Shown here piece by piece: positions 1,352-55,784 of a stretch of 64,000 nucleotides of DNA (position 1 is its first letter; every line of letters begins with the position of its first letter). The position numbers and the translations under genes are program-made. The stretch lies in NCBI GenBank assembly GCA_030803735.1, contig JAURUC010000001.1, positions 4,216,001-4,280,000 on the forward strand, given 5' to 3'. Source of the stretch: Actinopolyspora lacussalsi (GTDB lineage Bacteria > Actinomycetota > Actinomycetes > Mycobacteriales > Pseudonocardiaceae). Below the pieces are notes generated by a model. The model was not told the origin of the DNA. It saw nothing but the letters and a program-made list of their open reading frames with translations, and did no database searches.

Positions 1352-1376
1352 GGCGATTTCGTGGGAAGTTGATGCC
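1352..1376 (+). repeat. Dispersed intergenic palindrome, degenerate copy (a)
   Basis: GGCGATTTCGTGGGAAGTT followed by GATGCC is a diverged copy of the palindrome with core GATTTCGCGAGAAATC found at seven other intergenic sites in this window. It lies between the MoxR gene and the cold-shock promoter. Confidence 0.6.
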
Positions 1377-1381
1377 TGGCC

Positions 1382-1411
1382 TAGGCAGCACCGGCCGGGT
1401 GTGTGTATACT
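1382..1411 (+). promoter_or_regulatory. Possible promoter of the cold-shock gene
   Basis: TATACT at 1406-1411 is a good -10 hexamer. TAGGCA at 1382-1387, 18 bp upstream, is a weak -35. It would give a leader of about 165 nt before the ATG at 1584, as is usual for cspA-type genes, whose leaders fold in a temperature-sensitive way. The leader (1415-1583) is T/G-rich and contains no gene. Confidence 0.45.
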
Positions 1412-1583
1412 GTCCCTTGGTCGTCGTATTTCTGGGTCCGTGTTTGTGCACGCTCGCAGGATGTTGATGCGGGCGAGCTGCTGTCTTTGGTTGTAGCTGG
1501 AGTAGTTGCCGTCTGAGATCTTCCGGCCCGGGTGTTCGCGAGGTGCGTTCACCCGTCATACCAGCTCCCGTAAGGAGACAGAC

Positions 1584-1787
1584 ATGGCACAGGGAACCGT
1601 GAAGTGGTTCAACTCGGAAAAGGGCTTCGGCTTCATCGCCCCCGACGAGGGCGGGCCGGACATCTTCGTGCACTACTCGGCGATTGACGCCTCGGGTTTC
1701 CGTACCCTGGAGGAGAACCAGCAGGTGGACTACGAGGCCAGCCAGGGCAGCAAGGGCCCGCAGGCCGACGTGGTTCGCGTGCTCTGA
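1584..1787 (+). CDS. Cold-shock protein (CspA family)
   Basis: This is a 67-residue single-domain cold-shock protein, the family's normal length. It is a cytoplasmic single-strand nucleic-acid binder and RNA chaperone. RNP1 (KGFGFI) and RNP2 (DIFVHY) are intact after the N-terminal GTVKWFN motif. The start is fixed by AAGGAG at 1572-1577, seven bases before the ATG. The gene is monocistronic, with a long leader and a strong terminator at 1808-1850. A second cold-shock gene with a C-terminal extension lies at 57563-57958. Confidence 0.97.
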
Positions 1788-1807
1788 GTCTTTTCGCAGA
1801 GCTTTTT

Positions 1808-1850
1808 CCGGTGGCTCCTCATCCGCTCGGATGGGGAGCCACCGGCTTTT
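1808..1850 (+). terminator. Rho-independent terminator of the cold-shock gene
   Basis: The arm CCGGTGGCTCC pairs with GGAGCCACCGG (about 11 bp) around a 15-nt loop and is followed by CTTTTC. It lies 20 nt after the csp stop codon. Confidence 0.85.
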
Positions 1851-1930
1851 CGGGTGATCGACTGCACCCGCCACCTCTCGCAGGCCACCCGGTCGTTCGG
1901 TACTTCGTCCGAGTGGTTCCAAGGAGCACT

Positions 1931-2173
1931 ATCAGTACTACGAAACCCTCGCGTCACGCTCGGCCCCAGAGCCATGGCAAGACGGGCAACCATCCGGTGC
2001 CGTCGTCCCGCGGACGCGTCCCCATTCCCGAGACCGTCAGCACGGTCCAGTTCATCGAACCGGCGCACACCCGGGAGCTGCCCGAGCAGTACTCCCCGGT
2101 CGCCGATCACAGCGACGCCGCCATGCGCGGACTGCGCACTCCGTTCGACACCGATCCCTTCCGGGAACCCTGA
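1931..2173 (+). CDS. Possible small protein with a non-canonical start
   Basis: An open frame of about 80 codons ends at TGA 2171-2173 and has a strong G/C bias at third positions. A perfect AAGGAG at 1921-1926 is followed four bases later by ATC AGT ACT ACG AAA, where an ATG would be expected. An in-frame GTG at 1913 has no ribosome binding site and places the AAGGAG inside the gene. The C-terminal part is acidic and polar (TVQFIEPAHTRELPEQYSP; then FDTDPFREP at the end). I recognise no family. Either translation starts at ATC or GTG, or this is a broken start codon, or it is not a gene. Confidence 0.35.
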   Translation: MSTTKPSRHARPQSHGKTGNHPVPSSRGRVPIPETVSTVQFIEPAHTRELPEQYSPVADHSDAAMRGLRTPFDTDPFREP

Positions 2174-2467
2174 ACGGCACGATGCCTCCCCGGGCTCGTG
2201 GGGCGGATTCCGACACCGTTGCCGATATCGCCAGTGGTGCGTGAAGCGAGTTCTTTTCCGAGATCGGCGGTCCTCCCACTGCACGTCGAGCTCGACCGTT
2301 CATGCGGGTTACCTGTCGCACAGTTCCCGCATCGTGCGTTTTCAAGCCCCGGAAGTGGTTGGTTCCGGCTGTGCCGGATTTCGGGGCTGGCGCCCATTAC
2401 TGCAGAGGTATCCCGGGTGGAGTCGCACCGTCCACTTGACGGAGGCGATGGCGGTGCTCGATCCGGC

Positions 2468-2488
2468 GATTTCGCGAGAAATTGACGC
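2468..2488 (+). repeat. Dispersed intergenic palindrome, copy (b)
   Basis: GATTTCGCGAGAAATT followed by GACGC, preceded by CCGGC. It matches the family core except for the last base of the right arm. Confidence 0.8.
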
Positions 2489-2584
2489 GCGGCCGGTGGC
2501 GAAAACGAGATCTGTGCTCGCAGTGGTCCACGTTCACCGATGCGGTGAGTCCGACCTGGTTCGACTGATCGCACAGCGCGGCAC

Positions 2585-2612
2585 AGCGCCTTCGGACGCG
2601 TCCGAAGGCGCT
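2585..2612 (-). terminator. Hairpin terminator after the small membrane protein gene
   Basis: A perfect 13-bp inverted repeat (arm AGCGCCTTCGGAC, 2-nt loop) lies 12 nt beyond the stop of the minus-strand gene at 2625-2810. There is no T-run. Confidence 0.65.
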
Positions 2613-2624
2613 GCTCATGTGCGC

Positions 2625-2810
2625 TCACCGTTGTCGTGAGCGAGGGAGCAATCCCTTCGCGTCGAACACGGTGGTCACCGTGGCCAGCAGCAGCATGCTC
2701 AAGGCCACCCACGCCACTCGCTCGATCACGCCGACCAGCTGCAGTACGCCCAGTGTGACCACCAGGCAGCATGCCCCGAGCACGATCGCCAGCGCCCGCG
2801 TCGGTGTCAT
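2625..2810 (-). CDS. Small two-helix membrane protein
   Basis: This 61-residue protein is mostly two hydrophobic segments (about residues 6-25 and 30-48) joined by a short polar turn with ER, and it ends in a basic tail (PRSRQR). It is probably an integral membrane protein with both ends in the cytoplasm. The start is the ATG at 2808-2810, preceded at 7 nt by GGGAG. An upstream in-frame start at 2846 would add an unlikely polar 12-residue leader. A strong hairpin follows, so it is probably transcribed alone. No family is recognised. Confidence 0.65.
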   Translation of the reverse strand: MTPTRALAIVLGACCLVVTLGVLQLVGVIERVAWVALSMLLLATVTTVFDAKGLLPRSRQR

Positions 2811-3177
2811 GTGTGGCTCCCGCGCCGACCGCGGTAACCATCCCACCAGCCGTTACCAGACCACCGGTGACCCTGTTGCCCGGGTAGGAGTGAGGTCGAC
2901 TCTCCCCGCGCGGTTGTTGGCAACGGTTTCCCCCTGTCGTTCGGAAGCCGCGGTCGACATCGGTGTTCCCCAGCGGCTACGGGCAAGATCGAAGTCGAAC
3001 GTGCCAGAGCGCTTCGGCGCTGTGGGGGACGGCGAGTAACTCAGCCACTTTCGTGTGACGCGTGTAGGCGTGCGGAGACAGCGGTGAGGGTGTCGATTTC
3101 TCGTGAAATCGACGCCGTCCCGCTGCCCTGCCGCATCCCGTCGACCCACTACGCCCGTCGCGTGGGAGGGCTGTCAC
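2811..3177. other. Intergenic region
   Basis: About 370 bp contain the promoter region of the small membrane protein and palindrome copy (c) at 3092-3114. No supported gene. Confidence 0.55.
3092..3114 (+). repeat. Dispersed intergenic palindrome, copy (c)
   Basis: GTCGATTTC-TCGT-GAAATCGAC is a perfect palindrome with 9-bp arms, followed by GCC. It is the most symmetrical member of the family. Confidence 0.85.
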
Positions 3178-3891
3178 TCACAGCCGGGGCTGGTCGCGCA
3201 GGTCGAACATCCGCAGACAGAACGGGTCGGGAGTCAGCTCGTGCGGGCTCCACGCGTCGGGCACGCCGCGATCCAGGCGGTCCATGAGGTCGGGCACGGA
3301 ATCGGAGCCGTGCGCGACATCGACGTCGACACCGAGTGTTCCGGCCTCGGTGGGGGAGTCGAGGTAGAGTCTCGCCCACTGCGTCTCGTCGTCGAGCAGC
3401 CACGCGAACCCGGCAAGCCGGGTCGTACCGTCGGGCGGCAGCGGTGCCGGGCCTCGGAACGCGGCGGTGAGCAGGGTGCCGCGCAGCGCGTCCTGGAACA
3501 TGTCCAGTGGAGGGTCGTCGAGGAACTCGCCGCTGTCGTGCACGGCCATTCCGTGCAGTTCCCCCACGGTGTCGAGTCGGTCGAACCTCCCCCTGTCATG
3601 CCTGCGCAGCGATTCCGAGCGCCGCAGCACCAGCAGCACGTCCTCGAAACCGCGCGGACGACCGTCCGATCGCGACAGTGGTATCCGCAGTGCGTACTGC
3701 TCGATCAGCTGGTTCCACGGCGCCACCCCCACCCAGAGCGCGTCCGGCTCGGGGCGCACGACCGCTCGAACAGTGGCGCTGGACCCCGGCGAGATCCCCA
3801 TGGCGAGAGCGGCGAGGTCGCGGACCAGCGCCGCGTATGCGTGGTCGGCTTCCGAGCCGGTGGGGTTCGTGTCCGTCGTCGAAGGCGTCAT
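3178..3891 (-). CDS. Hypothetical protein (237 aa)
   Basis: This is a soluble acidic protein with no signal peptide or membrane segment and no family I can name. The middle carries GVAPWNQLIEQYALRIPL and DVLLVLRRSESLRRHDRGR segments. The second half is rich in Asp, Trp and Phe. It starts at ATG 3889-3891, which overlaps the stop of the upstream gene (3888-4088) as ATGA, so the two are almost certainly co-transcribed and translationally coupled. The function is unknown. Its pairing with a tiny membrane protein may mean that it acts at the membrane. Confidence 0.75.
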   Translation of the reverse strand: MTPSTTDTNPTGSEADHAYAALVRDLAALAMGISPGSSATVRAVVRPEPDALWVGVAPWNQLIEQYALRIPLSRSDGRPRGFEDVLLVLRRSESLRRHDRGRFDRLDTVGELHGMAVHDSGEFLDDPPLDMFQDALRGTLLTAAFRGPAPLPPDGTTRLAGFAWLLDDETQWARLYLDSPTEAGTLGVDVDVAHGSDSVPDLMDRLDRGVPDAWSPHELTPDPFCLRMFDLRDQPRL

Positions 3892-4088
3892 CGGCTCTTC
3901 TGGACGCTCAACCAGAGCGTCAGGAAACAGAAACCGAACACCAGGAACGGGCCTATGACGGTCGCGTAATTTCGCGGAGTGAGAATGTGCAGAATTACCA
4001 TCGCGATCGCCACGCCGAAAAAGAGGAAAGCCGCCGCGCTGGACCAGATCCTGGTTGACTTCTCGGAATTTCCCGTCGGGTCGGCCAC
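3888..4088 (-). CDS. Small two-helix membrane protein
   Basis: This 66-residue protein has two predicted transmembrane helices (about residues 16-36 and 41-61) with a short loop containing TPRNY and a basic end (VQKSR). The start is GTG 4086-4088, with no clear ribosome binding site. The stop overlaps the start of the hypothetical gene downstream. No family is recognised. A short polar N-terminus (GNSEKSTR) would lie in the cytoplasm. Confidence 0.7.
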   Translation of the reverse strand: MADPTGNSEKSTRIWSSAAAFLFFGVAIAMVILHILTPRNYATVIGPFLVFGFCFLTLWLSVQKSR

Positions 4089-4293
4089 GGTGGGTCAGTG
4101 TAGCAGCGAGATCGCCGTGGAACACCGCGTGCCGTGCCGGAGGTGAATTGATTCGGTCCTCGGCAGCGGGACGCGGTTCCCATCGCTTTTCCGGAGGCCG
4201 GCACAACGAATTCATAACGCGGTGGAAACCGCGACGGTGCCGGGCGGCGATCCCGGCGAGACCGCCGTGTTTCGGGCGTGTTCTTCGGTCCGG

Positions 4294-4548
4294 CTATTCC
4301 GCTGTGGTCCCTTCCGGATCGAGCACGGTTTTCCAGGACGCCTCCTGCGGCTCGGTCATTCCCCCGATCACGAACTCGCCGTCCTCGTTGAAGATCGGTC
4401 CTCCCGCCTGGGCGGTAGCCGCGGCCTGCGCGAGCGTGGCGTGCGCCTGGGCATAGGCCACGTAGGTACGTTCCTTCTCCTGGTCGTGCTGCTCCGGTGC
4501 TTCGGCCAGCAGGCGTTGCGCGGTCTTGAAGTGTTCGGGCCCAGTCAT
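4294..4548 (-). CDS. Conserved actinobacterial small protein (84 aa)
   Basis: It begins MTGPEHFKTAQRLLAEA and continues with an alanine-rich helix (YAQAHATLAQAAATAQ). This pattern is common in short proteins of actinomycetes and their phages, whose role is unknown. The C-terminal half is acidic (NEDGEFVIGG, then WKTVLDPEGTTAE). The ATG at 4548 begins this recognisable motif, whereas the longer open frame to 4680 has an unlikely Arg/Pro-rich leader. No phage genes surround it. Confidence 0.75.
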   Translation of the reverse strand: MTGPEHFKTAQRLLAEAPEQHDQEKERTYVAYAQAHATLAQAAATAQAGGPIFNEDGEFVIGGMTEPQEASWKTVLDPEGTTAE

Positions 4549-4757
4549 ACCGGCAACCCTGCCAGACCGGGATCCGGCCTCATGCGGGTGTGTAAAACGT
4601 GCTCCGGAAGCCCCTGGGGCTTCGTCGTCGACGAGCTGCCGTTGCCCGGGCGGGCTCGGCGATGCCCGACGGCGCGCCACCGGACGGGGCCGTACGGCAG
4701 CGAGCGTCGGTTCCGACGGGCGAGCCCACCCGACGGCCGAGTGCGGCGGAACGTCGG

Positions 4758-6044
4758 TCAGTACAGTTCCCGTATTTCGACGGCCCGGGCCATCGCCGCC
4801 AGTCCGGCGTCGTTCGGATGCACGTGGTCACCCGTGTCGTAGCGAGGTGCCAACCTGCTCGGATGCCCCGGATCCCGCACCGCGGCGTCGAAGTCCACCA
4901 CGGCGTCGAACGCTCCGGATTCGCGGATCCACTCGTTGACGGCCCGCCGGTCGGACTCGCCCGCGGCGTTGTAGCGCGGTGCGCCCTCGAAGGGTGTGAT
5001 CGTCCCGCCCACGACGCGGATACCGGCCTCGTGCGCCCGGGCGATCAGTTGTTCGTAGACACCGATGAGTTCGTGCGACTCCACGGACCCGGCGCTGTGG
5101 TGGATGTCGTTGATGCCCTCCAGCAGCACAACGGTTCGCACCCCGGTCTGGGACAGGATGTCGCGTTCGAACCGTGCGATCGCCGGTTCACCGCCGAGAC
5201 CGGCGTCGGTCAGCAACCGGTTCGCGCTCAGCCCCGCGTTGAGCACCCCGAGTTCGCGCGGTTCCGGTCGTTTCAGCAGCCGATCCGCGACCACGTCCGG
5301 GTAGCGGTGGTTGGCGTCGAGCGTCGAGCTCACGCCGTCGGTGATCGAGTCGCCGAAGAACACCACAGAACCGGCCGAATCGGTGCGGACGTCGACGCCG
5401 TCCAGGAAGTATCGTGCCGTGCCGATTGACTCGTAGTTCTCCCCTGAGCCGCTCGTGGCGTCGCCCGGCGCGAGGAAGGTGGTCGACCTGCCCTCGTAGT
5501 GCACCGAGGCCCGCCCGGTGGATTCGGGAAGGTGCACGCTGATGACGAGATCGCTGTTGTCGGCCACGTCCAGTTCGACCGGGTCCGAGATCCACTCCGC
5601 ACCCGCCGGAACCGTGGTCGAGGACCGGCCGTCGAACGTCATCGGCACCGCGGTCGTGGGGTCGATGTTCGGGGTTCCCCGTCCGCCCCGGCGCGGGGTC
5701 ACCGTCACCGCTCCCACGGGCAGCGGTTTCGTGCCGTGGACGTTCGTCAGGCGCAGCCGGAACCGGTCACCGCCCACCGACAGGTGCACGACCTGGCGCA
5801 GCGTCTGATCGTGGAAGTGCTGGGTCTCCGGGCGGTTGTCCGGCGGAGTCACGGCCGCTGCCCAGGATCCCACCCATTCCGAGTCGCCCGCGTGCGGCGG
5901 ATGTCGGTGATCGGAGGCCGAGGAGGGCGTGACCAGCAGCAGGGTGGTGGCCGCTACCGCGAGGAGATACCAGAATCCCCTGCGGGGCGTCGTTCTTCCG
6001 GAACCGGTGTTGTGCGACACGACCGACCTCGGCAGCTTCGTCAT
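4758..6044 (-). CDS. Secreted SGNH/GDSL-family esterase or lipase
   Basis: This 428-residue exported hydrolase has a basic N-terminus, a hydrophobic helix (about 24-38) and a likely signal peptidase site near SSA-SD. An N-terminal beta-rich region (about 55-215) is typical of actinomycete SGNH hydrolases. The catalytic domain shows block I FFGDSITDG with nucleophile Ser233, block II near NAGLSAN, block III GIND (310-313), and the Asp406/His409 pair in GDHVHPND. It probably hydrolyses esters of lipids or polysaccharides outside the cell, substrate unknown. The gene stands alone. A LacI-type operator lies six bases before its start codon. Confidence 0.92.
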   Translation of the reverse strand: MTKLPRSVVSHNTGSGRTTPRRGFWYLLAVAATTLLLVTPSSASDHRHPPHAGDSEWVGSWAAAVTPPDNRPETQHFHDQTLRQVVHLSVGGDRFRLRLTNVHGTKPLPVGAVTVTPRRGGRGTPNIDPTTAVPMTFDGRSSTTVPAGAEWISDPVELDVADNSDLVISVHLPESTGRASVHYEGRSTTFLAPGDATSGSGENYESIGTARYFLDGVDVRTDSAGSVVFFGDSITDGVSSTLDANHRYPDVVADRLLKRPEPRELGVLNAGLSANRLLTDAGLGGEPAIARFERDILSQTGVRTVVLLEGINDIHHSAGSVESHELIGVYEQLIARAHEAGIRVVGGTITPFEGAPRYNAAGESDRRAVNEWIRESGAFDAVVDFDAAVRDPGHPSRLAPRYDTGDHVHPNDAGLAAMARAVEIRELY

Positions 6045-6049
6045 GGGTT

Positions 6050-6063
6050 TTGAATCGTTTCAA
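6050..6063 (-). promoter_or_regulatory. LacI-type operator before the SGNH hydrolase gene
   Basis: TTGAATCGTTTCAA is an imperfect palindrome with the central CG of LacI-family operators (model TTGAAACGTTTCAA). It overlaps a second near-palindrome, GTTTCAATCGAAAC, at 6057-6070. Both lie immediately upstream of the hydrolase start at 6044, where a repressor would block initiation. No LacI-family gene is in the window. Confidence 0.5.
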
Positions 6064-6480
6064 TCGAAACCTACTCCCCCGCTGCCCGAGCGGCAATACT
6101 CCGGGTGGCGGTAGCGGGGCCCGCACGTGACGCCAGTGCCCGGCGACCTCCCGCTCGAAGCGCGGCCGGGCTTCGCGCGGGGGATGCGTCAGCGCTTGAG
6201 AAACAGTCACGCTCGAGAGCCGGTTCTCCCGCTCGCGCGAGGCGGGTCGCCGCGCTGTACCGCACGAACCCCGCGATCGACACGAGCGCGAGCGTCATCG
6301 GGAAGTACGGGCTCTCCGCGGACCGCTCCGATCTCCCGCTGCCGAGCCGGGGCGGTTCCGGCACAATCCGGCACGGAAACCACCGCGCGTCCCGCCACGG
6401 CGGGTTCCAGGAGCGCGGACCGGATTGAGCTCGTGACCATATCGGACCGGACACCGAGTTCCGGCGGAGGGAAAGCCCAC
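6064..6480. other. Divergent intergenic region between the hydrolase and purU
   Basis: About 415 bp between two divergent genes. No open frame with codon bias and a ribosome binding site is visible. It must hold both promoters, but I cannot place them. Confidence 0.5.
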
Positions 6481-7401
6481 TTGACGACCGAACCGGCGGC
6501 TTCGCGGACCGCTACGCCCGCCTCGCCCCAGAACCACGCACTGTCGGAGAACCACGCCTCGCTGATCGTGCAGGGCGAGGACCGCACCGGCATCGTCGCC
6601 GCGGTCAGCGCGGTGTTGAGCGGGCACGGCGCGAACATCGTCTCGTTGGACCAGTACTCCGACGACCCGCAGGGTGGTGCGTTCTATCAGCGCACGGTGT
6701 TCAGTCTCGCCAACCTCAAGGCCGTGCTTCCCACGATCGAGCGGGATCTGGAAACCGAGCTGGCCGAGGGCTTCGACCTCGGTTTCACGCTGCGCGACAT
6801 GTCGGTACCCAAACGCGTCGCCGTCTTCGCATCCAGGGAGGACCACTGTCTGCTCGACCTGCTGTGGCGACACCGGCGGGGCCAGTTGCCGGTGACCATC
6901 TCGATGGTCGTCTCCAACCACACCGACACCGCCGACGAAGTGCGCGCCTTCGGCATCCCGTTCGTGCACGTGCCCACGGGGGAAATGGGAAAAGCCGCCG
7001 CCGAGGCCGAACACCTGCGGCTGCTGCGGGGCAACGTGGACTTCGTCGTGCTGGCCCGGTACATGCGGATCCTGTCCGGCGACTTCATCGCGAGCCTGGG
7101 GGTGCCGATCATCAACATCCACCACTCGTTCCTGCCCGCCTTCATCGGTGCGGCCCCTTACGCCAAGGCCAAGGAACGCGGGGTCAAACTCGTCGGAGCG
7201 ACCGCCCACTACGTAACCGAGGACCTCGACGAGGGACCCATCATCGAGCAGGACGTGGTGCGGGTGACCCACGCCGACACCGTCGTCGACATCCGGCGTC
7301 GTGGTGCCGACGTCGAGCGCACCGTGCTTTCCCGTGCGGTGCGGTGGCACAGCGAGGACCGCGTGATCCGCACCGACAACAGCACCATCGTCTTCGCCTG
7401 A
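6481..7401 (+). CDS. purU: Formyltetrahydrofolate deformylase PurU
   Basis: This 306-residue enzyme hydrolyses 10-formyl-THF to formate and THF, balancing one-carbon pools and supplying formate for purine synthesis. An N-terminal ACT domain begins at ASLIVQGEDRTGIVAAVS. The formyltransferase domain contains the RYMRILS segment and the catalytic block NIHHSFLPAF, followed by GATAHYVTEDLDEGPII. I chose TTG 6481 because GGAGGG lies nine bases upstream and the protein length then suits the family. An in-frame GTG at 6433 is possible. The enzyme is cytoplasmic and the gene is transcribed alone. Confidence 0.95.
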   Translation: MTTEPAASRTATPASPQNHALSENHASLIVQGEDRTGIVAAVSAVLSGHGANIVSLDQYSDDPQGGAFYQRTVFSLANLKAVLPTIERDLETELAEGFDLGFTLRDMSVPKRVAVFASREDHCLLDLLWRHRRGQLPVTISMVVSNHTDTADEVRAFGIPFVHVPTGEMGKAAAEAEHLRLLRGNVDFVVLARYMRILSGDFIASLGVPIINIHHSFLPAFIGAAPYAKAKERGVKLVGATAHYVTEDLDEGPIIEQDVVRVTHADTVVDIRRRGADVERTVLSRAVRWHSEDRVIRTDNSTIVFA

Positions 7402-7485
7402 TCGAGGAGCCGGAACGGCTGAGCCGGTGCCCGAACCGGCGTCGGAACCGGGCCGTGATCGCCGCGTGAGGTGCACAATGTGGAT

Positions 7486-8652
7486 ATGCGCGAGGCGGAG
7501 CACACCCTCGAAGGGCTCGTCGGGTTCGCTCGCGCGCTGCGCCATTCCGGGATGCGGTGTGGCCCAGCGCGGGTGCGTTCCTTCCTGGACGCCACCGAGC
7601 ACGTCGACTTCGCCGATCGTGATCAGCTGTACTGGGCGGGCAGGCTGACGCTGTGCTCGGACCCCGACGACCTGCCCCGCTTCGACGCGGCGTTCCACGC
7701 CTGGTTCGGCAGGCTGGTGGAGACGACCGAACTCCGGCAGGAACAGCGCAGACAGGTGCGTTCCCGTGCGCTGCCACTGGGCGGTGACGAGCCGGAGCCG
7801 GCCGAGTCGACCGAGGTCGAACAGCTCGCGGCCGCAGGTGACGTGGAAGTGCTGCACCGCCGTGACCTGGCCGAACTCGGCGAGGAGGAGCGCGCCCACC
7901 TGCGGCGGATGATCTCCTGGCTGGATCCGCGTCCGCCGCGCCGTCCCGCACTGCGTTGGCGCCGGGCGCGCGACGGGCGACTCGACCCCGGCGCGACCAT
8001 GCGGGCCATGATCCGAACCGGTGGGGAACCGGTGCGCCTGGTGCGGCGGACACGCGGTGATCGGCCGCGCAAGGTCGTGCTGCTGATCGATGTCTCGGGC
8101 TCGATGAGTCCTTACGCCGACGCGTTGCTGCGTTTCGCGCACGTGGTGGTGCGGGCAGCACCGGCCAGCACGGAGGTTTTCACCCTCGGTACCAGGCTCA
8201 CCCGGGTGACCAGGCAACTGCGGCAACGCGACCCGGAGTTCGCGCTGACCGCGGCCGGGCGGGCGGTACCGGACTTCTCCGGTGGTACGCGGCTGGGAAG
8301 CACGCTGCGCGCGTTCCTGGACCGGTGGGGGCAGCGCGGGGCCGCTCGGCAGGCGGTGGTGGTGCTGTTCTCGGACGGCTGGGAGCGCGGGGACACCGCC
8401 GAGCTCGCCGAGCAGATGATCAGACTGCGTAGGCTGGCACACGCGGTGCTGTGGGCCAACCCGCACGCTGGTCACGAGGGCTACGCCCCGGTGCAGTCCG
8501 GCATAGCGGCGGCGCTGCCGCATGTGGACGGGCTCGTCGCCGGGCACAGCCTCGCCGCGCTGCGTGAGCTGTGGCAACGGGTGCGAAGTTGTTCGGAGTC
8601 GGCCGCCACAGGCCGTCCCGCAGGCGATTCCGTGGAGGTGAGTGGTGCGTGA
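7486..8652 (+). CDS. VWA-domain protein, CoxE family
   Basis: This protein of about 388 residues has a complete MIDAS motif, DVSGSMSPY, at about residues 202-210 in a C-terminal VWA domain, with a later FSDGWERGD segment. The N-terminal half is helical and charged. CoxE-type proteins pair with a MoxR/CoxD ATPase to finish metal-cofactor assembly of Mo hydroxylases. The gene overlaps xdhC by a few bases and lies upstream of coxSLM, while its likely ATPase partner is 6 kb away at 461-1333. The start is uncertain: GTG 7471, GTG 7480 and ATG 7486 are all in frame with only a weak GTGAGG upstream. I chose ATG 7486. Confidence 0.88.
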   Translation: MREAEHTLEGLVGFARALRHSGMRCGPARVRSFLDATEHVDFADRDQLYWAGRLTLCSDPDDLPRFDAAFHAWFGRLVETTELRQEQRRQVRSRALPLGGDEPEPAESTEVEQLAAAGDVEVLHRRDLAELGEEERAHLRRMISWLDPRPPRRPALRWRRARDGRLDPGATMRAMIRTGGEPVRLVRRTRGDRPRKVVLLIDVSGSMSPYADALLRFAHVVVRAAPASTEVFTLGTRLTRVTRQLRQRDPEFALTAAGRAVPDFSGGTRLGSTLRAFLDRWGQRGAARQAVVVLFSDGWERGDTAELAEQMIRLRRLAHAVLWANPHAGHEGYAPVQSGIAAALPHVDGLVAGHSLAALRELWQRVRSCSESAATGRPAGDSVEVSGA

Positions 8653-9796
8653 CGTACTCGGTGCGCTCCGGCGGCACTGGGAGTCCGGCAGCCCCGTAGG
8701 GGTGGGCACCGTGGTGGCGACCTTTTCCTCGGCGCCGCGCGCGCCCGGCGCCGCCATGCTGGTCGACGGGGACGGCGAGGTCGCGGGCAGCGTTTCCGGA
8801 GGTTGCGTGGAAGGCGCGGTCTACGAAACGGCCGGTTCGGTGCTGGCCGGTGACCCGCCGACGCTGTCCCGCTACGGTGTCAGCGACGACGACGCGTTCG
8901 CGGTGGGACTGACCTGCGGCGGAATCATCGACGTCTTCGTGGAGCGCGTGGATCGCGAGTCCTTCCCCCGCTTCGACGAACTCGTCGACTCGGTGACGGC
9001 GGGTGAGCCGGTCGCCGTGGCGACCGTGATCGAGGCACCGGACGAGTTCCGGGTGGGCAGACGGGTCCTGGTGTGGCACGACCGTAGCGAGGGCGAGCTG
9101 GGGTCGGACCGGCTCGATGACGCGGTGGTGGACGACGCCAGGGGGATGCTGGCCACGGGCAGAACCGGGGTGTTGGAGTACGGTCCGGACGGGCAGCGGC
9201 GCGGCGAGGGGCTGCGGGTGTTCGTCAACTCCTTCGAGCCGCCACCCCGGATGCTGGTGTTCGGTGCCATCGATTTCGCGGCCGCCATGACCAGGGTGGG
9301 AGCCTTCCTGGGGTATCGGGTGACCGTGTGCGACGCCCGCCCGGTGTTCGCCACCTCCAGCAGGTTCCCGGACGCGCACGAGGTCGTGGTGGACTGGCCG
9401 CACCGCTACCTGGAGGCCGAGGCCCGGGCGGGGAGGTTGGATTCCCGCACCGCGGTGCTGGTGCTCACCCACGATCCGAAGTTCGACGTGCCGGTGCTGC
9501 GTGTCGCGCTGCGGCAGCCGTTGGCCTACGTCGGGGCCATGGGCTCGCGACGTACCCACCGCGACCGGCTCGAAAGGCTGCGTGCCGAAGGGGTGACGGA
9601 CTCCGAACTGGCCGCGCTGTCCTCGCCGCTGGGGCTCGACCTGGGGGCGCGCACCCCGGAGGAGACAGCCGTGTCCATCTCGGCCGAGCTGATCGCTTCC
9701 CGGTGGGGCGGAACCGGTCAGCGACTCTCCCGGCTGGAGGGGGCCATCCACCACGAGCCGGAGATGCCCGAACGTTCCCGGTCCGCCGAGCAGTAG
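8645..9796 (+). CDS. XdhC/CoxF-family Mo-cofactor maturation protein
   Basis: This 383-residue XdhC/CoxI family protein has the N-terminal XdhC domain (SSAPRAPGAAMLV, then GSVSGGCVEGAVYE, then LTCGGIIDVFVE) and a C-terminal Rossmann-like XdhC_C domain (AYVGAMGSRRTHRDR, then LGARTPEETAVSISAEL). XdhC proteins bind molybdenum cofactor and promote its sulfuration and insertion into xanthine dehydrogenase-family enzymes. That fits the coxSLM genes downstream. GGAGG at 8634-8638 lies six bases before GTG 8645. GTG 8642 is the alternative. It overlaps the VWA gene, indicating coupled expression. Confidence 0.93.
   Translation: MRDVLGALRRHWESGSPVGVGTVVATFSSAPRAPGAAMLVDGDGEVAGSVSGGCVEGAVYETAGSVLAGDPPTLSRYGVSDDDAFAVGLTCGGIIDVFVERVDRESFPRFDELVDSVTAGEPVAVATVIEAPDEFRVGRRVLVWHDRSEGELGSDRLDDAVVDDARGMLATGRTGVLEYGPDGQRRGEGLRVFVNSFEPPPRMLVFGAIDFAAAMTRVGAFLGYRVTVCDARPVFATSSRFPDAHEVVVDWPHRYLEAEARAGRLDSRTAVLVLTHDPKFDVPVLRVALRQPLAYVGAMGSRRTHRDRLERLRAEGVTDSELAALSSPLGLDLGARTPEETAVSISAELIASRWGGTGQRLSRLEGAIHHEPEMPERSRSAEQ
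8653..8690. other. Overlap region between coxE-like and xdhC genes
   Basis: The two reading frames share 8645-8652, and the VWA gene's ribosome-binding region for xdhC (GGAGG at 8634-8638) lies within its own last codons. This is a normal coupled junction, with no extra gene. Confidence 0.4.
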
Positions 9797-9821
9797 GAGT
9801 CGGCAGAACCTGTCGGACTCC
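9796..9821. terminator. Weak hairpin between convergent xdhC and lexA
   Basis: An imperfect inverted repeat (GGAGTCGGCAG against CTGTCGGACTCC) starts at the last base of the xdhC stop codon. It could terminate either gene. No T-run is present. Confidence 0.3.
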
Positions 9822-9882
9822 AGTGGGCCTGCCGGGCTCGTGCGGTCCGGTCGAGTCTCACCGGGCGGCCTAGCCGCTCGGC

Positions 9883-10536
9883 TCAGACGCTGCGCAGCAC
9901 CGATACCACGATGCCGAGGACCGCGGCGTCGTCGCCGTCGATCACTTCGTGGGCCGGGTTGCGCGGTTCGAGCAGCACGTGGCCGCCGCGGCGGCGGTAG
10001 ACCTTGACCGTGGCCTCCTCGTCGAGCATCGCCGCGACGATCTGACCCGAGTGCGCCTCGGGCTGCTGGCGCACCACGACCACGTCGTCGTGATTGATCC
10101 CGGCCTCGATCATCGAGTCGCCCCTGACCCGCAGGGCGAACACGGTGCCGCGTGCGGCGAACTCCCGTGGCAGCGTGAGTACGTCGTCGACGTGCTCCTC
10201 GGCGGTGATCGGGGTGCCCGCGGCGATATCGCCGACCACCGGGACGCTCACCCGGTCGCCGCTCGGCTCCCTCGTCGGGGAGTCACCCAGGAACATGCGC
10301 ACGTCGATCGGTCGCGAGACCGTGGTTCCGCGCCGCAGGAAGCCCTTCCACTCCAGGCTCGCCAGGTGCTTCGAGACCGAGGACGAGGACCGCAGCCCCA
10401 CGGCGTCACCGATCTCGCGCGTGCTCGGTGAGTACCCGTGTTCCACCACCCAGTCCCGGATCGCGGCCAGGATGCGCCGCTGGCGTGGTGGCAGGGTGGA
10501 GGTGTCCGGGTGGTCGAGATCGTCGTAGGTGGTCAC
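9883..10536 (-). CDS. lexA: SOS repressor LexA
   Basis: This 217-residue LexA has an N-terminal winged helix-turn-helix (about residues 15-70; YSPSTREIGDAVGLRS recognition region) and a C-terminal S24 autoprotease. The scissile bond is Ala106-Gly107 in GDIAAGTP. The catalytic residues are Ser141 (RGDSM) and Lys178 (ATVKVY). It represses DNA-repair genes until RecA filaments trigger self-cleavage. The start is GTG 10534-10536. I find no GAAC-N4-GTTC SOS box between its start and the divergent toxin-antitoxin operon, although lexA is normally self-regulated. The first copy of the 109-bp repeat lies 27 bp upstream. Confidence 0.97.
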   Translation of the reverse strand: MTTYDDLDHPDTSTLPPRQRRILAAIRDWVVEHGYSPSTREIGDAVGLRSSSSVSKHLASLEWKGFLRRGTTVSRPIDVRMFLGDSPTREPSGDRVSVPVVGDIAAGTPITAEEHVDDVLTLPREFAARGTVFALRVRGDSMIEAGINHDDVVVVRQQPEAHSGQIVAAMLDEEATVKVYRRRGGHVLLEPRNPAHEVIDGDDAAVLGIVVSVLRSV

Positions 10537-10562
10537 GGGCGTAGATGGTAGACGCGGGCCCG

Positions 10563-10671
10563 GCCGATTCGATCACCGGTGTGCCGGGGCGGCCGTCGGG
10601 CGGAGCATCGTCACCCTGCCGTGTAAAGGGGGTTCGGGTGGGGGCGGCGTCGATTTCTCGCGAAATCGCCG
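10563..10671 (+). repeat. 109-bp direct repeat, left copy, containing palindrome (d)
   Basis: This block is repeated at 11780-11888 with one mismatch (TAA versus TGA near its middle). It begins GCCGATTCGATCACCGGTGT and ends with the family palindrome GTCGATTTCTCGCGAAATCG (10649-10668). The two copies bracket the antitoxin-toxin genes exactly. Confidence 0.95.
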
Positions 10672-10754
10672 GTGTTGGGGGAAGTGCCATTGCGTTTGTT
10701 TCGTTTGTTGCGGATAATGCGATTGTATCGACTCGCAGGAAGGGTGTGATCGTG

Positions 10755-11207
10755 ATGTCGCAGTCGATGCTCGACTCCGTGCAGCCGAGTGAGCCGGACC
10801 GCGAAACGGCGGTGGCGGCGTTACCGCGGGTACGGCACTACCTGAACACGCACGATCACTCCACGGTGCGGTTGACGGTCGACGACTTCGAACGGGAAGA
10901 ACTGGTCGTACCGCGTTCAGCGGTGAGGCTCTTCGAACGGATCCTCGCCTACATGGCAGCGGGCGCCGGCACTTCGATCGTTCCGACGAACGAGGAGCTC
11001 ACCACTCAGGAGGCCGCGAATCTGCTCAACGTGTCCAGGCCGCATCTGATCGGGTTGCTGGAAGCCGAGAAGATCTACTACCGCATGGTCGGTACCCATC
11101 GTCGGGTGAACGTCGAGTCGTTGTTGGAGTACATGCGCCGTGATGACCACGACCGGCGTTCGGCGGCCGATGAGCTCACCCGGCTGAGTCAGGACATGGG
11201 AGTGTGA
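10755..11207 (+). CDS. Excisionase-like HTH antitoxin of a PIN toxin-antitoxin pair
   Basis: This 150-residue DNA-binding protein has a MerR/excisionase-type helix-turn-helix near the middle (about residues 78-120), with TTQEAANLLNVSRPHLIG followed by YYRMVGTHRRVNVESLLEY. The N-terminal part is variable. Such proteins are antitoxins for PIN-domain ribonucleases. They bind the toxin and repress their own promoter. ATG 10755 was chosen because the family-like MSQSML start follows an A/T-rich promoter region and AGGAAGGG at 10738-10745. The toxin gene follows without a gap. Confidence 0.88.
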   Translation: MSQSMLDSVQPSEPDRETAVAALPRVRHYLNTHDHSTVRLTVDDFEREELVVPRSAVRLFERILAYMAAGAGTSIVPTNEELTTQEAANLLNVSRPHLIGLLEAEKIYYRMVGTHRRVNVESLLEYMRRDDHDRRSAADELTRLSQDMGV

Positions 11208-11759: not shown

Positions 11760-11779
11760 ACTCACCCGGGGCCGGTGAA

Positions 11780-11888
11780 GCCGATTCGATCACCGGTGTG
11801 CCGGGGCGGCCGTCGGGCGGAGCATCGTCACCCTGCCGTGTGAAGGGGGTTCGGGTGGGGGCGGCGTCGATTTCTCGCGAAATCGCCG
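11780..11888 (+). repeat. 109-bp direct repeat, right copy, containing palindrome (e)
   Basis: It is 108/109 identical to 10563-10671 and starts 20 bp after the toxin stop codon. Palindrome copy (e) occupies 11866-11888. About 65 bp further right, ATTGTGTCGAGTCGCAA (11954-11970) resembles ATTGTATCGACTCGCAG (10722-10738) in the antitoxin promoter, so weaker homology may extend past the repeat. Confidence 0.95.
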
Positions 11889-16170: not shown

Positions 16171-16292
16171 ACGCGGCTGTTCGGTTCGACGTGGGGGCTC
16201 CGGATCGCGGGACCCGAGCCCCCACTGTTCGGCACCTTCCCGGCGCGCGGCCCAACGGTTCGTAACCGGAAGTGATACGAGTAGGAGGAGCA

Positions 16293-17249: not shown

Positions 17250-17430
17250 ACCGGGAGCGTGGCCGTCGAGCTGTCGTTCCGAGTGCTGGCTCGAAGGTCG
17301 GGACCGTTCCGGTCGCGGCCGTCCCGCGGGACGTTCCCCGGCTTTCGCGGCGGGCCGAGTTCGGCCGGGCCACCCGGGAGATCCGGACGCGCCCGACCGA
17401 ACCGGCGGTTTCCCGCTGGTTCCCGAGGTC

Positions 17431-24409: not shown

Positions 24410-24787
24410 GTGCTGGCTCCTGGCTGAACTGGATCGGTGCTGGTGCGCGCGGCGCGGTCACCACCGGCGCAACGGGTTCCCGGCCGTCGAGTATTCCACC
24501 GCCGACGGAGCGTGCCACAGTGTCGCGCACCAGGGTACCCGTCGAGGCGACCGGCGGGATGGATGTCGATCTCGCGCGAGATCGGTGCCCACTCGCGCGG
24601 ATGTGCGCTTCGCCACGGTCTGGCGAACGGGCTCCGCGTCCGGCGGCGCGGAGGACAAAACTCCTGTTGCGGTGAGATTCCATTGCGACAACACTTGTCC
24701 GGTTCGTCGGAAAACGAGCTCCCGGCATGTCGTCCGCCTCCAGTATTTTCTTCGTCCGAAAGAGTGAAAGCTATCGAAGAGGACGGC
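24410..24787. other. Divergent intergenic region with palindrome (f)
   Basis: About 380 bp between the divergent XPB and LppU-like genes. It contains palindrome copy (f) at 24565-24589 and both promoters. No coding sequence is supported. Confidence 0.5.
24565..24589 (-). repeat. Dispersed intergenic palindrome, copy (f)
   Basis: GTCGATCTCGCGCGAGATCG followed by GTGCC. The 16-bp core GATCTCGCGCGAGATC is itself a perfect palindrome. It is a compensated variant: both arms changed T to C/G symmetrically. Confidence 0.75.
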
Positions 24788-42039: not shown

Positions 42040-42060
42040 TGTTACCGCGTCGGCTCTGTC

Positions 42061-42139
42061 TGCGTGGCAGTGCGGTTGGCGGAACCTCGCGCACGGCTCT
42101 CGCTGCGGGGAGGCCCGACATCGGGTAGCGACCTACACA
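42061..42139 (+). repeat. Dispersed repeat B, copy 2
   Basis: GTTGGCGGAACCTCGCGCAC, then GGCTCTCGCTGCGGGGAGG, then CCCGACATCGGGTAGCGACC. It aligns along its length with 21942-22015 on the other strand. It starts 22 bp after the MoaB-MoaE stop codon and forms the left half of the hairpin at 42088-42171. Confidence 0.7.
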
Positions 42140-42171
42140 ACGTCGGGCCTTCCTCGCGAGAGCCGCACGCG
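42088..42171 (+). terminator. Large hairpin after the MoaB-MoaE gene
   Basis: CGCGCACGGCTCTCGC pairs with GCGAGAGCCGCACGCG, and GAGGCCCGAC pairs with GTCGGGCC further in. The stem exceeds 20 bp. It probably ends transcription, although it could also be a repeat-borne structure. GTAGCGACCTAC occurs in its loop and again at 42247-42258. Confidence 0.6.
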
Positions 42172-42362
42172 AGAACCCGCGGCGGTGTGGGCTGCGTGCG
42201 TGGTGGTTCGGCGTTGCCACGCCGAAAGGACATCAGTCGGTTGGTGAGTAGCGACCTACGCGGCGAGCGGCCCGGCCTTGCAATGCATCCGACTCACGCA
42301 CCGGGGACACGCGTGCTGCTCACGCCGTACGGCCGCGTCTCCACGGCGGTCTCCGGGGTGGA

Positions 42363-42384
42363 GATTTCGCGAGAAATCGACGCC
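42363..42384 (+). repeat. Dispersed intergenic palindrome, copy (g)
   Basis: GATTTCGCGAGAAATC followed by GACGCC, an exact match to the family core and right flank. It sits 28 bp beyond the end of the VanZ-like gene, on its 3' side. Confidence 0.85.
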
Positions 42385-43957: not shown

Positions 43958-43965
43958 GTCCCTCT

Positions 43966-49643: not shown

Positions 49644-49650
49644 TCGAGGG

Positions 49651-53820: not shown

Positions 53821-54022
53821 ACCGATGAGAGGGGTGGCCCGGGTGGTGTGGGCAACGTGCCGGTGCGCCGCGGCACCCCGCCAGGATGCGGCGCACCCAC
53901 CGGGTGCGGGTCTCGCGCCGGTACGCCGCGACCCCTCGAATCCGCCGAGCCGGGATGGGCTCTTCTCCGGTTTCCGGGAACCGCTCCACCGCTTGCTCGG
54001 ATGTCTTGTGCTCGCAGCACGT

Positions 54023-54241
54023 TCACCTGCAGGACAGCGTCACTGCGGATGAACGTGATAAGTATCTTCCCCTGTCAGCGGTCGTCGTCCACTGATCCGT
54101 CTCCCCGTTGTACCGGCTGATCGACTTCGGATCGCTCGTCAACGTCGCGTTGACGTGATCTACCTTCTTTTTCCGGGATGCGGGCAGCCTGCTGTAAGCG
54201 TCATCAGCTACTTCCGACCAGATGACTCGGTACTTCGCCAT
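54023..54241 (-). pseudogene. RelE/ParE-type toxin, probably frameshifted
   Basis: The frame begins MAKYRVIWSEVADDAYSRLP and continues as a RelE-like protein to WTTTADRG at about residue 57, then ends in the atypical RYLSRSSAVTLSCR. In the next frame the DNA encodes KILITFIRSDAVLQVNVLRA, the expected last strand of a RelE toxin (usually HVITYVVSDAVLTVTVLRL-like). One missing G in the run CAGGGGAAG (C4 at 54069-54072 on the plus strand) explains the switch. The restored frame has no early stop, so the end may be decayed. It overlaps the DUF6247 gene (TGATG) as a toxin-antitoxin operon. Confidence 0.7.
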
Positions 54242-54624
54242 CAGCCGTCCACCCGCAGTCCCGAATCGGTTTCCCGGTGAACGCCGTGCTCGCCCCTGCG
54301 CCAGAGAACGCCGTTCTCGTATCGTTGCCACGACGTGCCGTCCGTGTCGTGCTGCCAGACCTTGGAGAAGTCGCCACGTTCGGCGCGTTCGATGGCGTCC
54401 CGCTCTTCGTCGGTGATCGGTTGGGCCGCGTTCACGGCGTTTCCCCACCAGCGAAGGAGGACTTCGTCGATGTGGGAGGTGTCGAAGTCCTGGGCGACTT
54501 CCCACAGTGCGCCCCGGAATTCCCGTTCGAACGCTGTGCGGTCCTCGTCTTCGAGGGCTTCCCGGAATACCTTGGCATCGCGGTGCACGTTGCCCCGGAT
54601 CTTCCAATCGCCGCTGTCGACCAC
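54241..54624 (-). CDS. DUF6247-family protein, likely antitoxin
   Basis: This 127-residue protein is acidic and helical. ALEDEDRTAFEREFRGAL followed by WEVAQDFDTSHIDEVLLRWW is characteristic of DUF6247, a family found before RelE-type toxins in actinomycetes. The C-terminal 50 residues (QRYENGVLWRRGEHGVHRE) are less conserved. It would bind and neutralise the toxin encoded immediately downstream, which appears to be frameshifted. ATG 54624 has no strong ribosome binding site nearby. Confidence 0.75.
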   Translation of the reverse strand: MVDSGDWKIRGNVHRDAKVFREALEDEDRTAFEREFRGALWEVAQDFDTSHIDEVLLRWWGNAVNAAQPITDEERDAIERAERGDFSKVWQHDTDGTSWQRYENGVLWRRGEHGVHRETDSGLRVDG

Positions 54625-54865
54625 GCTTTCTCCCTAGCCGGAAACCGCCCAGCATGTACTCCGCTCGCGACGGGAGGACGAGTGGGCGGCAACGCTGCTG
54701 TGCCGGCAACCAGAGTGCCGTGGCGTCGAGCCGTGGTCCACGATCCGCGCGTGCTGTCAAGCGAACGAGCTACGAGATCCGGCGAAGTCACGCATCCCGA
54801 GTGGCGAGCACCGCACACTTCGGACGGTTGATCGAGGCAACCGTGGCTCCCCGGAGCGGTTGCCC

Positions 54866-54898
54866 CGGGTGTCCTTCGACCGGTCGAGGGACACCCGA
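54866..54898 (-). terminator. Hairpin terminator of the MmpS-like gene
   Basis: CGGGTGTCC pairs with GGACACCCG, and TCGAC with GTCGA inside, giving a nearly continuous stem of 14 bp. It lies about 52 nt downstream of the stop codon at 54951. The rest of the 54625-54950 gap shows no gene. Confidence 0.7.
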
Positions 54899-54950
54899 GG
54901 TGCGGGATCGACTTCTCCCGCGGGCGGTCAGCGCGATCCGATGGCTTCGC

Positions 54951-55631
54951 TCAGAATCCGGTGTTGCCGTTGCAGGTGACCACCGCGTACTGACCGTTGC
55001 TGGTGTTCTCGGCCAGGACCTCGCCGTCGACGGTGATCTTGCAGGTGATGTCGCCGCCGCTCTGCCCGTTCTGCGCGGACAGCGAGTAGAACTGCACGCT
55101 GTCGGCTTCCCCGGTCTCCTTGCTCCAGGGCAGTTCGGCGTTGGTCTGCTGGCTCGTCTGGGTGCCCTTGCCGTAGGTGATCGAGCTCGCGCCTCCCGAG
55201 CCCGTGACCTCGTAGATCACCTTGCCCGAGCCGGCGGCGTCCTGACCGTCGCCGGAGGATTGCCCCTGCTCGTCAGAGCTCGTGCTCGATGCGGGTGTCG
55301 GCTGCTCCTGAAGGCTCTGTTCCGGGCCGCTGTTCATCTCGTTGATTTGGTTGTCGACCGCGATGGTGAGGCTCACGAAGACGACGATCGAAACGATGAA
55401 CGCGACCACTCCCAGTGCCAGCCCGATGTAGCTCATCACCAGGTTGGTGGCCGTGCCCTTGTGACCGCGCACCACGCCGATGATCCCGAAGATGATCGCC
55501 AGTGCCCCCAGGATGAAACCGAAGAAACCGATAACCGGGATCCACGCCAGCAGGATTCCGACTATCGCCAGCACCAGGGCGGTGATCCCCATGCCGTTCT
55601 TCGGGGCAGCCTGTCCCGGCTGCTGATACAT
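54951..55631 (-). CDS. DUF4190/MmpS-like membrane protein
   Basis: This 226-residue protein has a short polar N-terminus, two transmembrane helices (about 18-45 and 58-90; the DUF4190 pattern GMGITALVLAIVGI), a Ser/Gln/Asp-rich linker (about 100-135) and an extracytoplasmic C-terminal domain of the MmpS type (VIYEVTGSGGASSITYGKG ... ITCKITVDGEVLAE). MmpS proteins support MmpL exporters, but no MmpL gene is in the window. GAGAGG lies seven bases before ATG 55631. A terminator follows. Confidence 0.8.
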   Translation of the reverse strand: MYQQPGQAAPKNGMGITALVLAIVGILLAWIPVIGFFGFILGALAIIFGIIGVVRGHKGTATNLVMSYIGLALGVVAFIVSIVVFVSLTIAVDNQINEMNSGPEQSLQEQPTPASSTSSDEQGQSSGDGQDAAGSGKVIYEVTGSGGASSITYGKGTQTSQQTNAELPWSKETGEADSVQFYSLSAQNGQSGGDITCKITVDGEVLAENTSNGQYAVVTCNGNTGF

Positions 55632-55760
55632 CTGTGCAACCTCTCTGTCGATTACGGACAGCGTGCCGCGCACGCTGTCCGCGACATCGCGATCGGGAGC
55701 GAAATCGTTTCGGGAGCGGCGGTAACGAAACGGCCACGACCGGTTCCGGCCGTCGGACCG

Positions 55761-55784
55761 GCGATTTCGCGGGAAATCCACGCC
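55761..55784 (+). repeat. Dispersed intergenic palindrome, copy (h)
   Basis: GGCGATTTCGCGGGAAATC followed by CACGCC. Its core ATTTCGCGGGAAAT differs by one base from the B. subtilis Noc-site core ATTTCCCGGGAAAT. Confidence 0.8.

Follow-up and report, generated by a model that had tools for sequence, protein, structure and literature searches.

A REP-like family of intergenic palindromes in Actinopolyspora with a conserved, parS/NBS-like core

Short palindromes lying between the genes of Actinopolyspora constitute a REP/BIME-class family of intergenic repeats, which is expanded in one clade of the genus and has a sister form in a second genus, g26. REP sequences are usually regarded as hairpins or mobile debris; unlike this usual view, the bases conserved here resemble a palindrome read in duplex DNA. 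The explanation we favour, and hold to be narrowly probable, is a clade-expanded family of this class whose core is read by a dimeric protein at gene ends. The starting point was an initial annotation of a 64-kb stretch of Actinopolyspora lacussalsi DNA (the window), which described eight palindromes with a ParB/Noc-like core and considered a nucleoid-associated or ParB-family protein, an intergenic repeat or a regulator site. Its observation is partly confirmed and its interpretation partly supported, the REP-type repeat being the best supported of the three options.

The window genome (G000, 5.03 Mb) contains 164 exact GATTTCNCGNGAAATC sites, with 0 in the control, and eight palindromes in the 64-kb window exceed this genome mean for exact sites. 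With up to three mismatches allowed and both strands counted, core matches in the window number 15, versus a shuffled mean of 0.32; one of the 15, at 38844, is unrelated. In an 864-kb sample, GATTTC-N4-GAAATC occurs 38 times, versus a mean of 0.008 for 119 permuted stems. The family consensus is asymmetric, GGCGTC-GATTTC-TCGC-GAAATC-GCCGSGCC, and the uneven flanks noted at the outset are real, with GGCGTC at one end and GCCGSGCC at the opposite end. It comprises a tag whose columns -4 to -1, counted one by one, are mostly C or T, G, T and C, a GATTTC/GAAATC stem of 6 bp (7 bp with the next C-G pair), a loop of four bases (TCGC and variants) and a GCC tail. Scoring used a 34-column weight matrix, in which most copies were entered on both strands and which returned nothing of at least 6 bits on five random 64-kb sequences. 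Six of the eight palindromes (at 2468, 3095, 10652, 11869, 42363 and 55763) are firm copies of 36-49 bits; of the other two, one is degenerate and one a different palindrome (Table 1). The coordinates first given were correct to within a few bases.

Table 1. Repeats located in the window, with weight-matrix scores.
Feature	Position	Strand	Score (bits)	Remarks
Degenerate copy	1352..1374	-	18.5	core at 1355; AACTTCCCACGAAATC on minus strand; upstream of cold-shock gene; similar sequence in G003/G008
Copy, AATTTCTCGCGAAATC + CGTC tag	2465..2487	-	41.8	orthologous copy in A. alba
Copy, GATTTCTCGTGAAATC + TGTC tag	3091..3113	+	36.1	orthologous copy in A. alba
Copy, CGTC tag + GCC tail	10648..10670	+	44.5	between lexA and HTH_17 gene; also in A. 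righensis, A. alba and A. mzabensis
Copy, CGTC tag + GCC tail	11865..11887	+	49.4	behind PIN_3 gene
Separate perfect palindrome GATCTCGCGCGAGATC, not a family member	24565..24587		6.7	core at 24568; between divergent predicted genes; conserved in A. righensis and A. alba
Second-family repeat module, 70-bp hairpin	42095..42164			family often adjoins palindromes
Copy, inside longer repeat mosaic	42360..42382	-	44.5	between convergent genes
Copy, GATTTCCCGCGAAATC	55760..55782	-	38.7	

Copies form mosaics with other repeats and occur as direct tandem doublets. Among 18 neighbouring pairs in the G000 sample, 16 are in direct orientation and 13 are spaced by 52-56 bp; at the loci of relatives, 39 of 51 pairs are direct. 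The number of units differs between related genomes, with changes among singlets, doublets and triplets, and the 109 bp ending at the 11865 copy match the 109 bp ending at the 10648 copy at 108 positions.

The location of copies relative to genes was assessed in the same 864-kb sample, with genes from our own simple codon-based caller and copies counted from at least 20 bits. None of 74 copies falls within a predicted gene, which extends to the sample what had been reported for the window and departs from a random frequency inside genes. Convergent gaps hold 36 copies, tandem gaps 30 and divergent gaps 5, with 3 at stretch edges, while the intergenic DNA of these types amounts to 27, 99 and 45 kb, respectively: convergent gaps are favoured and divergent ones avoided (chi-square p 2e-15). 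Copies prefer gene 3' ends, at a median distance of 86 bp from the nearest stop codon (n=66).

Between related genomes, ATTTC-n-CG-n-GAAAT is nearly frozen, with 1 change in 708 compared bases versus 5-16% in the flanks. The comparison covers 59 ortholog pairs, which derive from 38 sites and are not independent, three pairs with gapped cores having been set aside. Changes number 0/295 at positions 1-5, 0/118 at positions 7-8, 1/295 at positions 10-14 and 0/59 at position 15; variation is found at positions 0 (6/59), 6 (7/59) and 9 (4/59), and in the tag (33/235). Within the inner 14 bases, only about four changes count as separate, of which one is at position 6, two are at position 9 and one is at position 12. 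Across the family, A is kept at position 1, position 6 is mostly T or G but also C and A, and 30 of 249 copies have A at position 8, so that the loop centre is not fixed. Differences between copies had been said to preserve the palindrome. This is not supported in Actinopolyspora, where the stem pairs of 249 distinct copies are Watson-Crick as often as expected under independence and 74 copies have a non-Watson-Crick outermost pair; a covarying hairpin is rejected for this genus on the absence of covariation. In G188, a g26 genome, some copies do have the outer pair changed on both sides (2/44, GGTTTC/GAAACC), and 8/44 are changed on one side; two-sided changes are the pattern expected of a structural palindrome. 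The frozen ATTTC-n-CG-n-GAAAT, without covariation, suggests that the core is read as sequence by a dimeric protein, with a ParB-like layout.

The family is unevenly distributed among genomes. Four Actinopolyspora genomes carry 138-169 copies, two carry 26-27 and four carry 0-1; as G061 is listed under the species of the window genome, the four copy-rich genomes represent three species. Conservation of the core in relatives extends to near ones, the repeat being absent or nearly so in four congeners. Up to 121 copies are found in g26, which is probably Saccharopolyspora, since the repeat also occurs in records named as Saccharopolyspora. No clean insertion with target duplication and no clean empty site was seen in the related-genome alignments examined, and Rfam gave no window match at gathering score. 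Carriage by phages or plasmids was rejected, as viral contigs contain 0 exact 22-mers and plasmids no match at E 0.01. With Y1_Tnp as the class looked for, no mobilising enzyme was found: Y1_Tnp has 0 matches both in G008, which carries 27 copies, and in G188, which carries 34; 10 of 12 fetched Y1 loci have no copy and the other 2 a single copy about 1 kb away. The three Y1 loci read (2/4 in G000, 1/1 in G004) have, by eye, an IS605 and TnpB look, and the GTAG tag is absent from the consensus. RAYT/IS200 mobilisation was rejected on the grounds that Y1_Tnp does not track copy number and that these three loci appear IS605-like by eye. Copies may owe their dispersal to an enzyme that has since disappeared or escaped recognition, and their local increase to recombination between repeats.

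A close parallel is with the CGTC-tagged REPs (Di Nocera et al. 2013, PMC3733652). Both are short palindromes with CGTC or TGTC at one end and a 4-base loop (4-5 bases in the latter, where unpaired CGTC, TGTC or CCTC end tags occur), both have high, uneven copy numbers, dimers and no transposase found (here, Y1_Tnp was looked for), and both lie mostly between convergent or same-direction genes. The stem is 6-7 bp here versus 8-9 bp with A-T in the first two pairs, and the tail GCC versus CCA; dimers are direct here, whereas HH dimers predominate and HT are negligible in the CGTC-tagged REPs. Our family, unlike theirs, has no copies in the predicted genes of the sample, and it avoids the terminus in two of three genomes, whereas most families in that paper are described as genome-wide. 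The host here belongs to Actinobacteria, a word absent from the main text of PMC3733652. E. coli BIME/REP elements likewise form mosaic intergenic arrays, a likeness of arrangement, and unlike them no RAYT was found here; for E. coli, PMC6379681 reports that gyrase cleaves in BIME-2 and that its sites follow an ori-ter gradient. In the open-licence literature searched, the one match for REP sequences in Actinopolyspora concerns saltern isolates and nothing combines REP sequences, RAYT and Actinobacteria; titles and opening lines of abstracts reveal no family of intergenic palindromic repeats in Saccharopolyspora, and for dRS3/CGTC palindromes in Actinobacteria, only PMC3733652 is relevant by title among the matches listed. 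Even on an ordinary reading, the palindromes represent a CGTC-tagged REP-like family from Actinobacteria whose constraint, gene context and origin bias have been measured.

Chromosomal position was analysed after merging neighbours within 200 bp into clusters (from 77 positions in G000, 26 in G003 and 44/45 in G188, where a parS-like match was left out and genome length rounded to 8.3 Mb). The third farthest from the origin holds 6 of 71 clusters in G000 and 2 of 38 in G188, but 7 of 25 in G003: the terminus is avoided in the first two genomes and not in the third. Copies are centred on the origin, their mean lying 3 kb from parS in G188 and 71 kb from dnaA in G000. A lower amount of noncoding DNA was rejected as the source of the gap (864-kb sample), as was loss of accessory DNA for three terminus stretches (L177, L196, L197), which are copy-free although 54-89% of their length is present in A. 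alba and A. mzabensis at 91-96% identity. Of the 28 loci of the second repeat module, 0 lie more than 2 Mb from dnaA; 17 are within 400 bp of a palindrome and 11 are not. Away from palindromes, the share of noncoding DNA taken up by repeated 14-mers drops from 1.2% to 0.17%. Being common to an unrelated repeat and missing in G003, the origin bias need not reflect the palindrome's reader.

The family can be explained in several ways. Under the explanation we favour, a dimeric, sequence-specific protein would recognise ATTTC-n-CG-n-GAAAT in duplex DNA where genes end. It would act mainly within the two thirds of the chromosome on the origin side, most likely to organise the chromosome or to relieve supercoiling where genes converge. 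Unlikely, if the least so of the alternatives, is a hairpin of RNA or DNA that is purely structural and acts at transcript ends as terminator or mRNA stabiliser, without its sequence being read. It agrees with the gene 3' placement and convergent bias, with consensus folds of -14.5 and -15.3 kcal/mol (z -1.7 and -1.9) and with the paired changes in some g26 copies, but the 249 Actinopolyspora copies do not covary, and in 118 ortholog comparisons loop bases 7 and 8 never differ, unlike bases 6 and 9. Intrinsic terminators combine a GC-rich hairpin with a T run behind it; the repeat has no T-run, and a scan of window 1-20000 gave no terminator-like call at any of its five copies. A selfish or neutral repeat without host function, the terminus gap reflecting history or a general purge of repeats there, ranks third among the alternatives and appears doubtful: patchy presence between species, the second module and the declining 14-mers fit it, yet neutrality does not give core substitutions at least 30-fold below those of the flanks in orthologous copies, and a tag and tail evolving at flank rate speak against simple homogenisation.

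Between these two in rank, and itself of low probability, is the view that the single chromosomal ParB is the reader, the copies being weak, REP-borne secondary parS sites of the origin-side two thirds that carry A for G at position 1 and a variable position 6. TTTCnCGnGAAA is common to the core, parS and NBS, and the family departs from parS GTTTCACGTGAAAC at positions 1 and 6, precisely those separating parS from NBS (PMC7383237). The NBS site TATTTCCC-GGGAAATA is not matched either, A1 being kept and position 6 variable. With numbering placed by eye via the conserved N178, G201 and R204 of PMC7383237, residue 184 of ParB is R in 10/10 Actinopolyspora genomes and K in G188, and the same source reports that Caulobacter variants with R173 and K184 are promiscuous; the origin-centred copies of G188 and G000 also favour this view. 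However, the parS-type contacts R173 and G201 are kept in 10/10 genomes while A at position 1 is, in that source, read by Q173 in Noc; the same R184 ParB occurs in non-carriers, and M179 is confined to the four copy-rich genomes, which form one clade. The A at position 8 in some copies also speaks against this view, which leaves the placement at gene ends unexplained.

A Noc-type nucleoid occlusion system with a dedicated ParB paralogue is very improbable. Resemblance to NBS and avoidance of the terminus, which PMC7383237 reports for NBS, recommend it, but a single ParB_N match per genome in 10/10 Actinopolyspora genomes contradicts a ParB_N-type paralogue, the Noc paralogue being rejected on this ground; G003 does not avoid its terminus third, and four congeners have few or no copies. 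Among the options first left open, a ParB/Noc-paralogue system is not supported, given also the parS-type residues and the ordinary parS sites, of which there are 3-5 per Actinopolyspora genome. No reader protein emerged; the ParB_N search gave one ParB per genome only. The family shares NBS-like A at position 1 and, in 2/3 genomes tested, terminus-poor copies, but differs from parS and NBS in its variable position 6, asymmetric flanks, intergenic location, tandem doublets, patchy presence and lack of a Noc paralogue. With a constrained ATTTC-n-CG-n-GAAAT and terminus avoidance in one genome each of two genera, the likeness to parS/NBS is nevertheless more than superficial and remains a live lead for some other reader or ParB itself.

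More speculatively, and with a small probability, a permissive (K/R184) ParB or a like-reading dimeric protein might use some 150 parS-like sites, borne by the REP and placed where genes end, as a dispersed, terminus-poor network organising the origin-side chromosome or blocking division over it, akin to nucleoid occlusion without a Noc paralogue. If a protein does read the copies, a repeat would have turned into chromosome-wide wiring, in the phylum of C. glutamicum, a species whose treatment in PMC3566199 refers to bacteria without recognisable Min and nucleoid occlusion. In the window genome, five canonical parS lie at parB, separate from the palindromes, which are not clustered there.

The window spans 4.216-4.280 Mb of a genome assembled as one contig. 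Searching it with the core on both strands, at up to 3 mismatches, returned 15 matches where 0.32 were expected, and the 5.03-Mb genome holds 164 exact GATTTCNCGNGAAATC sites and none of the reversed control. The alignment of 136 rows, chance matches from unrelated genera among them, gives the consensus GGCGTC-GATTTC-TCGC-GAAATC-GCCGSGCC, a clearly asymmetric unit of about 30 bp. The weight matrix firmly supports six of the eight copies listed in the initial annotation, with a degenerate copy at 1352; what lies at 24565 is another palindrome, which looks like an operator (Table).

Table. Coordinates of repeats and other features.
Feature	Position	Description
Cold-shock gene (CSD)	window 1403-1787	leader and coding region match elsewhere at ~80% identity (ten Actinopolyspora genomes searched)
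Direct repeats	window 10563-11888	109 bp, 108 identical; palindrome copy at the end of each; enclose the gene pair below
HTH_17 + PIN_3 gene pair	window 10746-11759	toxin-antitoxin-like; adjoins lexA
Perfect palindrome GATCTCGCGCGAGATC	window 24565-24587	divergent gap; kept in near relatives
Imperfect hairpin	window 42095-42164	70 bp; second repeat family, 28 loci in the 864-kb sample (module match)
Palindrome doublet and degenerate-looking hairpin-module stretch	window genome 3594827-3595110 (L248-L249)	just behind dnaA, ahead of the DnaA-box cluster

Gene context was surveyed in 864 kb of this genome, namely the window and 40 evenly placed stretches, with a cut-off of at least 20 bits. None of the 74 copies lies inside a predicted gene although predicted coding sequence makes up 78% of the sample. 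Convergent gaps hold 36 copies, tandem gaps 30 and divergent gaps 5, with 3 at stretch edges; up to 2 Mb from dnaA, a copy occurs in 25/83 convergent versus 3/88 divergent gaps. In tandem gaps, copy orientation opposes that of the genes in 22 of 30 cases (18/24 with clusters merged, p 0.02). This placement differs from that of promoter operators and is the usual one for REPs, which sit mostly at such convergent or tandem gaps (PMC3733652). The repeat is a REP/BIME-class family. It is alike overall to the CGTC-tagged REPs, yet departs from their stem, tail and dimer definitions (PMC3733652), and is therefore classed as a new variant.

For assessing constraint on the core, 38 single copies gave 59 ortholog pairs, 3 further pairs with gapped cores being excluded. 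Numbering the stem 0-5 and 10-15 and the loop 6-9, changes are absent at positions 1-5 (0/295), 7-8 (0/118) and 15 (0/59), and number 1/295 at 10-14; positions 0, 6 and 9 vary (6/59, 7/59 and 4/59), as do the preceding tag (33/235) and the flanks (5-16% by segment). Pairs share sites, and the separate changes amount to two at position 9 and one each at 6 and 12; an earlier, partly overlapping set of 30 pairs is concordant. If the hairpin were all that mattered, the two sides of a stem pair could change together. Among 249 distinct copies, no stem pair covaries above the independence expectation; C7 is present in 248, and G8 is replaced by A in 30. We infer, on few events, that the core may be read as duplex sequence by a putative dimeric protein, because paired stem bases do not change together and orthologs share the same loop centre. 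Stem changes in G188, a genome of genus g26 (probably Saccharopolyspora), would be compatible with a hairpin or a dimer site alike, one pair being altered on both sides in 2/44 copies and on one side in 8/44. The repeat thus described probably acts at gene ends via a putative sequence-reading protein.

ParB is the boldest candidate for that reader. According to PMC7383237, parS (TGTTTCAC-GTGAAACA) and NBS (TATTTCCC-GGGAAATA) differ at positions 1 and 6, which Noc contacts through Q173 and R201, a K at 179 or 184 being permissive. The repeat core retains the bases common to both sites, with A at position 1 and a variable position 6. A search of 10 Actinopolyspora genomes gave a single ParB_N match in each, carrying R173 and G201, and therefore no Noc-type paralogue was found in them. 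All ten also carry R184. The G188 ParB has T179 and K184, hence the RTKG combination that is promiscuous in Caulobacter ParB (PMC7383237). At residue 179 (Caulobacter numbering), M occurs in the four copy-rich genomes only (loci L216, L217, L218, L221) and T in the other six (L213-L215, L219, L220, L222); this match with high copy number is perhaps due to chance, because the copy-rich genomes form one clade. ParB is a possible reader of the repeat.

Exact sites number 164, 161, 169 and 138 in the copy-rich genomes, and 27, 26, 1, 0, 0 and 0 in the remaining Actinopolyspora. Family-wide, 22 of 297 genomes have any exact site: 7 Actinopolyspora, ten g26 genomes (16-121 sites each), three of g68 (14, 3 and 1) and two from other genera (one genome each, 2 sites). 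In named Saccharopolyspora records the repeat takes the form G[AG]TTTCGCGCGAAA[TC]C or variants of it, and units follow one another in direct orientation every 41-42 bp, once as a run of six. Neighbouring pairs are likewise direct in 16/18 cases in the window-genome sample and 39/51 in relatives' loci, most commonly 52-53 bp apart. Between copy-rich genomes, orthologous intergenic regions mostly retain their copies, unit number shifting among one, two and three, and no clean empty site was seen in those aligned. At one locus A. mzabensis is without the copy, its spacer having diverged yet being similar in length; at another A. alba has ~160 bp extra, copy included. Across genomes, copy number does not track Y1 transposases.

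The copies are concentrated towards dnaA, at 3.594 Mb in the window genome. The exact 22-mer forms 71 clusters, 6 of them in the terminus-side third versus 23.7 expected (p 9e-7; Rayleigh p 4e-6); in the 864-kb sample, density is 13.8 copies/100 kb close to dnaA and drops to 0 past 2 Mb, and occupied convergent gaps go from 7/22 to 0/23. Three terminus stretches lack copies, though A. alba and A. mzabensis conserve them over 54-89% of the length, and terminus-zone-matching contigs of four relatives (400 kb) hold none of at least 20 bits; near the window, the three copy-rich relatives have 27 copies in 200 kb, versus 0 in 73 kb of another Actinopolyspora, G003. In G188, whose origin was placed by ParB and four parS, the mean cluster position lies 3 kb from parS, with 2/38 clusters in the far third. 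In G003 the far third holds 7/25 and the bias is not significant, which counts against a general origin-bias rule. Of the 28 loci of the 70-bp hairpin module, 17 have a palindrome no more than 400 bp away and none lies beyond 2 Mb from dnaA, and repeated 14-mers apart from palindromes likewise drop away from dnaA; these gradients count against a palindrome-specific cause of terminus avoidance. By analogy with E. coli, where gyrase sites follow an ori-ter gradient and are enriched in BIME-2 (PMC6379681), gyrase might be their common cause.

Around dnaA itself, the aligned spacer of G061 (same species as the window genome) is without the core, and no copy was seen in fetched stretches of G001, G002 and G006 showing the DnaA-box cluster; that of G005 has no copy, but no such cluster was recognised either. 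G003 has one copy near its contig start. The window genome has a copy or doublet there (Table), and A. alba, A. mzabensis and, weakly, G008 have copies ahead of the cluster at a similar distance.

The lexA-side regions aligned from A. mzabensis, G003 and G008 each contain two repeats, alike within each genome, suggesting that the 109-bp pairs may undergo concerted evolution.
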